Shown here: positions 7,119 to 9,854 of the stretch, piece after piece
Position numbering within the stretch: the stretch's first letter is position 1
Layout of the letters: every line of letters starts with the position of its first letter
Source of the DNA: an uncultured Bacteroidota bacterium
GTDB lineage: Bacteria; Bacteroidota; Bacteroidia; Chitinophagales; Chitinophagaceae
Length of the DNA stretch: 64,000 bases
Assembly (NCBI GenBank): GCA_903877645.1
Contig: CAIRES010000048.1
Location: 1 to 64,000, forward strand
Direction: 5' to 3'
The notes under the pieces: model-generated
What the model saw: the letters and a program-made list of their open reading frames with translations, nothing else
Database searches by the model: none
What the model was told of the DNA's origin: nothing
Position numbers and translations under genes: made by a program

Positions 7119-8084
7119 TTAAGTGGGCAAACAAATTTCAAATACAGAACCTGAGGGCGTGTTATCTTTAACGGTAATGCGCCCTTTGTGTTGCAGCACT
7201 ATCTTATTGGTAAGATACAGCCCCAGCCCCGTGCCTTTTGATGTGCGGCTTTCTTCATTGCCTATGCGGTAAAACTTCGTGAAAATTTTCTTTTTCTCCG
7301 TATCTGATATGCCTTCGCCTTCGTCTATGACCTGGAGTATTACATTCTTATTCTTTTGCTCTATGGCTATTAATATCGGTTTATCGGCAGGTGTGTATTT
7401 TACCGCATTTTCGAGCAGGTTGTTTATTGCCATCCGCAGCATGGTCTTATCCCCCGTGATCTTGCATCCCGGCTGTATTTCTTCCTCAAACCTGCGTGGA
7501 TAACGTGCCGCGTAATCCTGCAGTGCATCTTCTACCATTGCAGAAAGGTCGAAGCTTTCCCTTGCCTGCTTGTATTGCCGCCCTTCTATCTGCGATACGA
7601 ACAGCATATTATTGCAAAGGTCATTGAGCCGGTCTGATTCTTTGATGCAACGCTCCAGCAACTGTTTTGTTTTATCCTCATCCAGCTTGTGCTTCTCCAG
7701 TGTTTGCAGGTTCAGCTTCATGGCCGCAATAGGCGACTTGAGCTCATGCGTCACAGACAGCATAAAATTATTTTGCTGCCTCGACAACATGATGCGCCTG
7801 ATAAAAGAACGATACACGATAAATGCACCGATGAGTATCACCACAAGAAACGTGGAACCCTCGCCTACATATTGCGTGGTGCGCATCGAAAGGTTGTGTT
7901 TTAATTTTACTACTTCTTCATTATAGGCCGCAGGATATTGTACGCTGTCTATAGTGTTCTTGAGTGTGATGATCTCCTGGGAGTAGATATGTCCGCTTTG
8001 CTTCTCAAGGCTCATCCCCCAAAAAACAATGATAGCTGTGGTATAAGCAAGTAGCAGCAGGTATACAGAAGTAAAAACGCGCAT
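7119..8084 (-). CDS. Membrane sensor histidine kinase
   Basis: A 321-residue sensor kinase. The first membrane helix is about residues 4-23, then a short extracytoplasmic loop (about 25-75) and a second helix (about 79-93). HisKA carries the phospho-acceptor H113 in VTHELKSPIA. The HATPase domain has an N box (NNLLENAVKYT, about 221-231), G1 (DEGEGI, about 254) and G2 (GTGLGLYL, about 284). No response regulator gene adjoins it; the nearest receiver protein is at 12.3 kb. Upstream of its start lie TTAGTCG-type short tandem repeats. Confidence 0.92.
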   Translation of the reverse strand: MRVFTSVYLLLLAYTTAIIVFWGMSLEKQSGHIYSQEIITLKNTIDSVQYPAAYNEEVVKLKHNLSMRTTQYVGEGSTFLVVILIGAFIVYRSFIRRIMLSRQQNNFMLSVTHELKSPIAAMKLNLQTLEKHKLDEDKTKQLLERCIKESDRLNDLCNNMLFVSQIEGRQYKQARESFDLSAMVEDALQDYAARYPRRFEEEIQPGCKITGDKTMLRMAINNLLENAVKYTPADKPILIAIEQKNKNVILQVIDEGEGISDTEKKKIFTKFYRIGNEESRTSKGTGLGLYLTNKIVLQHKGRITVKDNTPSGSVFEICLPT

Positions 8085-8175: not shown

Positions 8176-8661
8176 TTAATTATTTCTGCTAAAACCCGTC
8201 TTCTCCAGCCTTAGTCCTACATTCAGCACTTCGGGTAGTGGATTCACCCGCATGTTTTGCTCAATAGCTATTTTGTAGGTACCCTTCTTATTGAATTTTA
8301 TCGAGTCGCCAAGGTTCAGCAGCATGCGCTGTTCATAGATCTCACCCATACCACGCCCCAGCCATTTACCCGACGATTCTGCCAGGGTAATATTGATCCT
8401 TTCTTTCTTCACCACGCTGTCGCCCGGTACGTTAATGTACATCCACACCCATATATTGCAGTAAGGGTATGCCTGTGTGTGCCTGATCAGGAAGTAAGGC
8501 CGGTATGCGGCAGTAGTATCGGTAATGTCCACAGAGAATGATGGCCTGAAGCTGTAGGCCCATGCGTTTTGAGGTATGCCCTCCTCTTTCTGAAAATAAG
8601 GTGCAGGCAGGCAACCCGCTATCAGGCAGCAAAAACTAAGTATGAGTAGTGCTCGGTACAT
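8176..8661 (-). CDS. gldH: Gliding motility lipoprotein GldH
   Basis: A lipoprotein of the Bacteroidota gliding/T9SS apparatus, in the periplasm or envelope, needed for gliding and for stability of the motor complex in studied species. I start it at ATG 8661 (MYRALLILSFCCLIAGC): this gives a clean lipoprotein signal with lipobox LIAGC, whereas the upstream in-frame TTG does not. Diagnostic GldH blocks are visible: FLIRHTQAYPYCNIWVWMY, GKWLGRGMGEIYEQRMLL and a C-terminal LNVGLRLEK. It lies 27 nt downstream of the DUF1016 gene but has its own TACTTTTG box 8 nt before the ATG. No other gld genes are in the window. Confidence 0.9.
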   Translation of the reverse strand: MYRALLILSFCCLIAGCLPAPYFQKEEGIPQNAWAYSFRPSFSVDITDTTAAYRPYFLIRHTQAYPYCNIWVWMYINVPGDSVVKKERINITLAESSGKWLGRGMGEIYEQRMLLNLGDSIKFNKKGTYKIAIEQNMRVNPLPEVLNVGLRLEKTGFSRNN

Positions 8662-8669
8662 TGTTAGGT

Positions 8670-8677
8670 CAAAAGTA
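8670..8677 (-). promoter_or_regulatory. -7 promoter box TACTTTTG (gldH)
   Basis: Perfect TAnnTTTG on the minus strand, 8 nt upstream of the gldH ATG. It lies partly in the gap after the upstream DUF1016 stop codon. Confidence 0.5.
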
Positions 8678-8687
8678 AGGTTCAATT

Positions 8688-9836
8688 TTATAAACTCTTC
8701 AATTCATTTTTGATGAATTGGGCTATCTGTTCTTTATCAGGCAGCTCCAGCATGTATTTGCGTACAAATAGCTGCTGGTCCATGCCTGCGGTGGCATATT
8801 CTACCAACGCATCATTTTTATTGGCTACCAGCAATATGCCCACCGGGTCATTATCATCGGCCAGCTTTATTTCTTTTTTATAGTAGTTGATGTAGGTATT
8901 GAGCTGACCGGCATTGTTGTGCGAGAAGTCGGCCACCTTCAGGTCTATGAGTACATGGCACCGCAGTATGCGGTGGTAGAATACCAGGTCTATAAAGAAG
9001 TATTCATCACCTATCAGTATCCTCTTTTGCCGGGCTTCGAGGCAAAATCCATGGCCCATTTCCAGCAAAAAGTCCTGTAGGTTGTCCAGCAGGGCTGTTT
9101 CCAGGTCGGTTTCTTCCACCGCATCTTTAAACGGCAGCCCTAAGAATTCAAATGTATAAATGTCCTTGATAAAAGATGTAGCCGGCTGTCTTTCCGTTTT
9201 TTCGTGCAGTTGCGCCAACAGTTCCTCCGGTTTTTTAGAAATGCCGCTCCGCTCATATAACAGGGAGTTTATTTGCCTTTTCAGTTCACGCACACTCCAG
9301 GTGCCTTTTATGGCTTCTATGGCGTAGAAGGCCCTTTTTAACGGGCTTTCAAGCGGCAATAAAAGGGTTATGTGCGAGAAGGAAAGGCTGTTGATCATTT
9401 TCTCACTTAGCTCGCCATAAGATTGGGCAGACAGTGTCTGTCCAATTCCTATTATTCCATTTCCTAATTCGTCAGACGTCTGACGAATTACATTTAAATC
9501 ATCTTCGAATTCGTCAGACGTCTGACCAATTCCTATTATTTTATTCTTTAACTCGTCGAGAACAATTTGCGCTATAGTAGGATAGGCAATATAAAGCAGC
9601 CTGTTTAATTTCAGATTGGTTTCAGAAAGGCCTTTTGAGCTAAGTGCATTGGATATGATCTTTAGAACGTTATCCCCATACTTCGCTTTATCTTCGCCTT
9701 TCTGTTCATATTCTACAATGTAGTAGCCAATGAGCCAGTTGCGGATGGTGAGCAGGCGGTTCACGGCCTTGCTGGCTTCCTGCTTCAGGCTGCCGTCTAT
9801 AGATTGTATCTGCGATATGAGCTTATCTAAATCCAT
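8688..9836 (-). CDS. DUF1016/YhcG-family PDDEXK nuclease protein
   Basis: A 382-residue protein with an N-terminal DUF1016 helical domain (about 1-195, with TWSVRELKRQINSLLYERSG) and a C-terminal PDDEXK nuclease-like domain (about 215-375). The putative catalytic residues are D283 in FFIDLVFYH and D298/K300 in LIDLK, followed by NAGQLNTYINYY. Family members are DNA-metabolism or defence-associated nucleases of mostly unknown role. Residues 99-136 are an inserted linker made of repeated IIGIGQTSDE-type units encoded by palindromic DNA (see the repeat entry). It sits between yicC and gldH with short gaps; a TAACTTTG box (9847-9854) gives it its own promoter. Confidence 0.88.
   Translation of the reverse strand: MDLDKLISQIQSIDGSLKQEASKAVNRLLTIRNWLIGYYIVEYEQKGEDKAKYGDNVLKIISNALSSKGLSETNLKLNRLLYIAYPTIAQIVLDELKNKIIGIGQTSDEFEDDLNVIRQTSDELGNGIIGIGQTLSAQSYGELSEKMINSLSFSHITLLLPLESPLKRAFYAIEAIKGTWSVRELKRQINSLLYERSGISKKPEELLAQLHEKTERQPATSFIKDIYTFEFLGLPFKDAVEETDLETALLDNLQDFLLEMGHGFCLEARQKRILIGDEYFFIDLVFYHRILRCHVLIDLKVADFSHNNAGQLNTYINYYKKEIKLADDNDPVGILLVANKNDALVEYATAGMDQQLFVRKYMLELPDKEQIAQFIKNELKSL
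9430..9531. repeat. In-frame 24-bp palindromes inside the DUF1016 gene
   Basis: A perfect 24-bp palindrome (AATTCGTCAGAC and its reverse complement) spans 9466-9489. A second copy with one mismatch lies at 9508-9531, and a degenerate third (CAGACAGTGTCTG) near 9430-9452. All are read in frame as GQTSDE/RQTSDE repeats in the linker between the two protein domains. Confidence 0.85.
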
Positions 9837-9846
9837 GCTACCTGCA

Positions 9847-9854
9847 CAAAGTTA
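9847..9854 (-). promoter_or_regulatory. -7 promoter box TAACTTTG (DUF1016 gene)
   Basis: Perfect TAnnTTTG, 10 nt upstream of the ATG at 9836 and overlapping the yicC stop codon. Confidence 0.45.

Follow-up and report, generated by a model that had tools for sequence, protein, structure and literature searches.

Palindromes inside DUF1016/YhcG nuclease genes appear to be the DNA site of the encoded protein

Palindromes in the linker of a DUF1016/YhcG gene

We analysed a stretch of 64,000 nucleotides of contig CAIRES010000048.1 (assembly GCA_903877645.1) from an uncultured Bacteroidota bacterium of the Chitinophagaceae, which we refer to as the window, and studied a DUF1016/YhcG gene in it that carries three palindromes within its coding sequence (Table 1). 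From comparison with homologues, genes of this family appear to carry the target of their own product inside the gene as a palindrome. The window protein matched DUF1016_N (PF17761, E 4.8e-25) and the YhcG_C PDDEXK domain (PF06250, E 3e-50) and contains the D...(D/E)XK residues of the DUF1016/YhcG PD-(D/E)XK family; no further domain was found in Pfam at E<=10. An NCBIfam search gave no match, and the PHROGs match, phrog_22762, has no function assigned there.

Table 1. Features of the DUF1016/YhcG gene in the window
Feature	Position	Strand	Remark
DUF1016/YhcG gene, 382 amino acids	8688..9836	(-)	predicted DNA-binding domain and PD-(D/E)XK nuclease
Predicted helix-turn-helix, residues 50-84	9585..9689	(-)	helix 50-65, turn, helix 72-84; AlphaFold2 models
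Codons 73-77	9606..9620	(-)	residues 73, 76 and 77 (here T, K, L) co-vary with pairs 7, 8 and 5/6
Palindrome copy 1 (gene order)	9508..9531	(-)	24 bp, one mismatched pair
Palindrome copy 2 (gene order)	9466..9489	(-)	perfect, 24 bp
Palindrome copy 3 (gene order)	9422..9446	(-)	degenerate; gene-strand centre CAGACACTGTCTG
Codon 154 (Ser), helix 153-159	9375..9377	(-)	co-varies with palindrome pair 3
YhcG_C PD-(D/E)XK domain	8730..9176	(-)	NucS/EndoMS-like in model; D283, D298 and K300 present

The original prediction had described a perfect 24-bp palindrome, a near-perfect second copy and a degenerate third in the linker, and all three were recovered. It had placed the element at 9430-9531, a span that holds real copies, but its start cuts the third copy short, which begins at 9422. 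One further pair extends copy 2 to 26 bp (9465-9490). The copies are spaced at 42 bp, all lie in frame in the linker, and they are translated as GIGQTSDEF, VIRQTSDEL and IGQTLSAQS, which agrees with the expected GQTSDE-type units that leave the reading frame unbroken. In a chance check, 100 shuffles of the window gave 0 matches within 3 mismatches. The half-site GTCTGACGAATT occurred 3 times in the 3.84-Mb genome, every time in the window gene, and was thus absent from the rest of the genome, which was one of the two conditions that the original prediction had named as speaking against it. Because the half-site is confined to this gene, it is not a dispersed element. The looser pattern CAGACN{0,3}GTCTG was found at 5 places in the genome, of which 3 are the window-gene copies and the remaining 2, on other contigs, are CAGAC-GTCTG pairs with different spacing.

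The palindrome as a feature of the family

To place these copies in the family, we collected homologues from a scan of genome contigs (80 loci), from viral contigs (50 loci), from Escherichia coli and from further stretches. Within the taxonomic family to which the window belongs, 195 genomes were sampled and 98 of them contained DUF1016/YhcG; it was also present in 59 of 398 genomes of another phylum and in E. coli K-12. The 282 matching open reading frames (ORFs) comprised 255 of full length, of which 249 were left after removal of identical 900-base ends and were aligned. Linker palindrome counts, catalytic residues and spacing were taken from the 215 members that are less than 85% identical.

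A linker palindrome with a score of at least 8 was present in 193 of these 215 genes, although its sequence differs from gene to gene. At the same score, palindromes were found in 107 of 3,757 windows of equal length taken from other parts of these genes and in 369 of 8,600 linkers after codon shuffling that preserves the protein. For 181 of the 215 genes, the centre of the best palindrome in the whole reading frame fell within the interval from codon 73 to codon 154, which makes up 12% of the frame on average. At a score of at least 7, the 249 genes carried no palindrome in 16 cases, one in 149, two in 59, three in 17, four in 7 and five in 1. The linker varies from 39 to 348 nt in length and its sequence is also highly variable, so that the second condition named against the original prediction, a conserved linker, does not hold and its two checks point in different directions.

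In genes with a short linker, the centre of the palindrome was fixed 12 nt before the LS(F/W)SH codons (107 of 116). When all 116 genes were scored at this place, without selection, pairs 3-8 were complementary in 101-111 of them compared with 34-50 expected. Each of these positions was occupied by three or four pair types, while the outer AATT and the central CANTG were mostly constant. The site is self-complementary over about 27 bp, with an outer AATT, seven variable pairs per arm and a centre that is usually CANTG; 72 different arm words were counted in 178 genes.

An exact search of the viral contigs found the palindrome TTGTGCAGACANTGTCTGCACAA in two places, both of them DUF1016 genes, and a second pattern, CGCCAGACANTGTCTGGCG, had no match there. 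Extra copies just outside the gene were found upstream at one locus (L069), downstream at another (L096) and downstream in E. coli. The two upstream palindromes of L069 lie 43 and 119 bp before the ORF and have the arm style of their own gene, and one of them is perfect and 71 bp long. We also compared paralogues for site avoidance: none of 35 same-genome pairs shared an arm, compared with 35 of 1,676 between-genome pairs. Because arm sharing is also rare between genomes, the figure for paralogues is no evidence of avoidance.

Protein residues that track palindrome bases

Raw mutual information over all columns, computed for 189 genes with even-centred palindromes left out, was led by columns 43, 32 and 182, with 76 and 73 within the first ten. 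Because mutual information was dominated by subfamily structure, we used disjoint nearest-relative pairs and a tree instead. Columns 44, 67, 152, 182, 355 and 357, which lie outside both helices and are strongly associated with pairs 2-3, look like subfamily markers for the most part, and we do not claim them as contacts.

The strongest association, at the top of 28,682 residue-base combinations, was that of R73 with G7. R73 occurred with G7 in 97 of 100 genes, whereas another residue at position 73 occurred with G7 in 7 of 122. Among the disjoint nearest-relative pairs, residue and base changed jointly 20 times, every time in the same sense. We also used a tree for which only the nuclease domain was taken (172 of 227 genes, with a palindrome score of at least 8); on it, R73 and G7 changed 42 times each and agreed at 163 of 169 tips. 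To control for linkage by closeness, we moved the offset from -70 to +70 around the palindrome centre (141 offsets). Agreement with R73 was highest, at 165 of 169 genes for G at -7 and again at 165 of 169 for C at +7; the next best offset reached 108 of 169 and random permutation 107 at most.

Further residues behaved in a similar way. E76 occurred with C8 in 16 of 16 genes, aromatic residues and Ser at position 76 went with T8, and K76 or R76 mostly with G8. S154 was paired with A3 in 64 of 74 genes and G154 with C3 in 23 of 23, while T154 mostly went with G or T. In the 112 disjoint nearest-relative pairs, changes in the arm (pairs 5-8) were tracked best by residues 77 and 73, followed at lower rank by 72, 80, 76 and 83, which lie on one face of helix 72-84; the nuclease columns 279 and 338 also ranked high. 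When identity was included as a covariate, residue 73 ranked first among 274 columns, and residues 72, 77 and 80 took third, fifth and sixth place. For single pairs, and without correction for how many columns were compared, the leading column was 154 for pair 3 (p 2e-12), 73 for pair 7 and 76 for pair 8 (p 3e-10); pairs 5 and 6 were both led by 77, and pair 9 by 78 and 76. Residue 77 tracks its two pairs less cleanly than 76 and 154 track pairs 8 and 3.

The window gene fits this residue-base code in its two main copies, with T73/T7, K76/G8, L77/A5 and C6, and S154/A3. The codons for residues 73-77 lie clear of the palindrome. The genome of the window contains another DUF1016 gene (L001, G000:C42:24767-25219), which has R73 and R76 and a different palindrome with G7 and G8. 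Because the two genes differ in both residues and palindrome, this single cell would hold two specificities.

Predicted fold of the protein

AlphaFold2 predicted a helix-turn-helix formed by helices 50-65 and 72-84, and helices 153-159, 165-178 and 182-190 behind the linker, with a confidence score (pLDDT) of 87 for the N-terminal domain. When the model of this domain was compared with known structures, the 12 best rows were all ParB/Noc/Spo0J DNA-binding domains (Z 7.1 to 5.7) and the next row had Z 4.5. The best ParB-type row, at Z 7.1 over 99 residues and 3.1 A, lies below the level of Z 8 at which the tool is trusted. HTH_ParB matched 5 of 66 members weakly (best E 0.016), and PDB sequence searches with the full protein and with a profile of the N-terminal domain found no relative. 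A ParB-like fold of the N-terminal domain is suggested by the model comparison. The C-terminal domain resembles the NucS/EndoMS and Can2/Card1 nucleases (Z 11.1 for 2vld), and almost every one of the 215 genes retains its catalytic residues D283, E/D298 and K300.

Alleles of yhcG in E. coli

For E. coli, we read 20 regions among several thousand records, and the palindromes described here come from these regions. In K-12, the coding sequence of yhcG contains three palindromes, and a fourth lies 15 bp past the stop codon; this fourth copy is a perfect 25-bp palindrome outside any gene (L113:6971-6995). The arms of the copy behind yhcG differ between strains, with both sides changed together. 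K-12-type alleles and the allele from an O102 strain encode proteins that hardly differ outside the segment of the recognition helix and the palindromes. In the first copy, K73/R76 alleles have C7/G8 and R73/W76 alleles have G7/T8, so the two E. coli alleles differ there as the residue-base code predicts. In K-12, the in-gene copies after the first, and also the one past the stop codon, depart from their own helix.

In ST131 (L128:1502-1528) and 'clone D i2' (L129:1501-1527), yhcG is absent between gltD and nanQ. The locus holds a 27-bp palindrome identical to copy 1 within the K73-type alleles, for instance that of O157; it may be a relic, an ancestral site or an independent element. In E. 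coli B (L114:3001-3802), yhcG ends exactly where the third palindrome ends, and the shortened gene is followed by an ORF of 101 amino acids (P0003) that is annotated 'transposase' and has no Pfam or NCBIfam match. We rejected breakpoints at palindromes as a rule for yhcG, since only the E. coli B type has one and the other truncated alleles that we read end at IS1 or IS629/IS3. A published antisense RNA that is activated in stationary phase, G0-10703, overlaps the 5' region of yhcG (L113; PMC7967276).

Interpretation and alternatives

We consider it very probable, from the co-variation of residues and bases, that the palindrome is a DNA site recognised by the gene's own product. The original prediction had mentioned a self-recognition or binding site for the nuclease only as a side remark, and the co-variation now argues strongly for it. 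A dimer with a ParB/Noc-like helix-turn-helix would bind the site as double-stranded DNA; pairs 5-9 of the outer arm would be read by the recognition helix, and pair 3 of the inner arm by the helix that contains residue 154. The palindrome lies between the codons for these two base-tracking parts of the protein, an arrangement that would let specificity and site move as one cassette. Binding inside the ORF might block transcription and keep a potentially harmful nuclease at a low level; we chose autorepression as the first candidate purpose because nothing else is needed for it and because some genes carry copies just outside, and we rate its chances at slightly under even. Recognition of the own site as double-stranded DNA, with autorepression as its likely purpose, is our best explanation as a whole, with a probability of roughly 0.6.

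Several observations weigh against this explanation. A palindrome with a score of at least 8 is missing in 22 of the 215 genes, copies near promoters are rare, and operators about 300 bp inside a gene are unusual. In genes with several copies, the agreement between R73 and G7 falls from 79 of 84 in copy 1 to 67 of 78 in copy 2, 13 of 24 in copy 3 and 1 of 8 in copy 4. In K-12-type alleles, copy 3 scores best and yet departs from the R73/G7 rule, which copy 1 obeys. Residue 77 predicts pair 5 in 106 of 165 genes, compared with 101 for the commonest base. The likeness to ParB/Noc stays below Z 8, with a non-significant Foldseek E of 0.5 at best and no sequence match in the PDB.

The main rival, because the catalytic residues are conserved and PADLOC lists the family as a candidate phage defence (PDC-S02), is that the palindrome is a cleavage site, and cutting there or close by would drive gene conversion and cassette exchange between alleles or would destroy incoming DNA with the same address. 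The conservation of the catalytic residues means that the function goes beyond binding. A short segment with the helix and the palindromes has been exchanged between E. coli alleles, and in E. coli B the coding match breaks off precisely where a palindrome ends, both of which would fit cutting. However, the nuclease would then cut its own gene, beside which no methylase or other protection was seen, and the insertion-sequence ends of the other truncated alleles do not coincide with palindromes; on balance we regard cleavage as doubtful. A related and equally tentative possibility is a self-addressed nuclease family, in which each gene would encode, between two base-reading residues, the address on which its nuclease acts, and the nuclease might cut or mark DNA that bears the address and so serve as a drive, for exclusion or in defence. 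Because address and reader would move between alleles as one cassette, new and mutually blind specificities could arise. If recognition of the own-gene site itself is right, the gene of nearly every member would directly give its target, and a first amino-acid-to-base code would come with it; a large family without a known function would gain a testable one, a natural set of orthogonal DNA-binding nucleases would be at hand, and there would be a clear case of a protein and its site that co-evolve because one stretch of DNA encodes both.

The remaining alternatives are much weaker. The transcript presumably includes every palindrome inside the gene, each of which could fold into a short-looped stem, so that hairpins in the messenger RNA (mRNA), recognised by the protein or by a ribonuclease, might feed back on translation or mRNA stability. 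Over pairs 2-9, mismatches comprised 15 GT and 37 AC, compared with 67 and 84 expected for independent columns; because G-T, which is G-U in the messenger, is rarer than A-C, selection for an mRNA hairpin is not apparent. There are also copies outside the coding region, and the tracking of one base by one residue, with R-G and E-C pairs, looks like major-groove reading. We therefore rejected the hairpin as the main cause and find it very unlikely. Even less credit goes to mutational bias, in which template switching during replication perfects imperfect palindromes without selection. It would explain why arms remain complementary despite drift, including in later copies that no longer fit the protein, and it may contribute to those copies, but it fails on one residue predicting one base more than 40 nt away and on the restriction to one site. 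Least probable, to the point of being negligible, is a selfish palindromic element inserted in frame like those of Rickettsia, as the original prediction had proposed. The in-frame position in a flexible linker and the 1 to 5 copies per gene would suit such an element. It was rejected because there are no dispersed copies in the own genome and most homologues have the palindrome at the same site, with a different sequence each time and compensating arms; in 20 other genomes, among the matches listed, the core occurred outside the genes and their flanks at about the frequency of the reversed control.

Comparison with known systems

The Rickettsia palindromic elements are dispersed repeats of about 100-150 nt at many places in the genome, whereas the DUF1016 palindromes measure about 27 bp and occupy one position in one gene family. 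parS, the site of ParB, is nearly constant and can lie inside spo0J; the DUF1016 site, unlike the ParB/Noc sites, lies inside the gene's own region for DNA binding and varies by gene. The window protein also differs from ParB/Noc in that no N-terminal CTP-binding ParB domain was found in Pfam and that it has a PD-(D/E)XK nuclease, and no parA partner was present among the neighbours in the window. What ParB/Noc with parS/NBS and the DUF1016 proteins would share is the predicted fold with its helix-turn-helix and a dimer on a palindrome. In ParB, guanine 1 is contacted by R173 of the recognition helix, and the choice of base 6 depends on position 201 in a second region (Jalal et al. 2020, PMC7383237), which parallels R73 with the outer pair and 154 with the inner pair in DUF1016. 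The two readers are 28 residues apart in ParB, and 28 is both the median and the commonest spacing in DUF1016.

The DNA-binding part of the homing endonuclease I-TevI represses its own gene through an operator, as the DUF1016 protein might, but the I-TevI operator overlaps the promoter and resembles the homing site (PMC2988022), whereas the DUF1016 sites lie inside the coding sequence, are palindromic and co-vary with the protein. Unlike the target of a homing endonuclease, the palindrome is intact inside the gene and not interrupted. As with the Rickettsia elements, in-frame palindromes leave the reading frame unbroken (PMC4316617). PARCEL repeats are likewise coding repeats with dyad symmetry in the DNA but form tandem arrays of 25 residues, many of them in membrane and surface proteins; the words 'nuclease' and 'DUF1016' were absent from the text, and the parts covered held no link between a palindrome and DNA-reading residues (PMC2996958). 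The PDC-S02 models of PADLOC match both the window protein (E 4.4e-120) and E. coli YhcG (E 2.2e-131), although PDC-S02 is a candidate label only, and the parts of its literature covered contained nothing on palindromes or mechanism. In open-licence PubMed Central text, we found no literature on palindromes in DUF1016/YhcG genes.

Gene neighbourhood

Four neighbours of the window gene were scanned, namely genes for a YicC-like endoribonuclease, an M23 peptidase, GldH and a histidine kinase, and none of them encodes a DNA methylase such as a type II restriction-modification system would have. The GldH lipoprotein gene (8176-8685) and the histidine kinase gene (7119-8084) lie downstream. The YicC-like gene lies upstream on the same strand, and because the gap to the nuclease gene is only 15 bp (9837-9851), the two genes may be co-transcribed.
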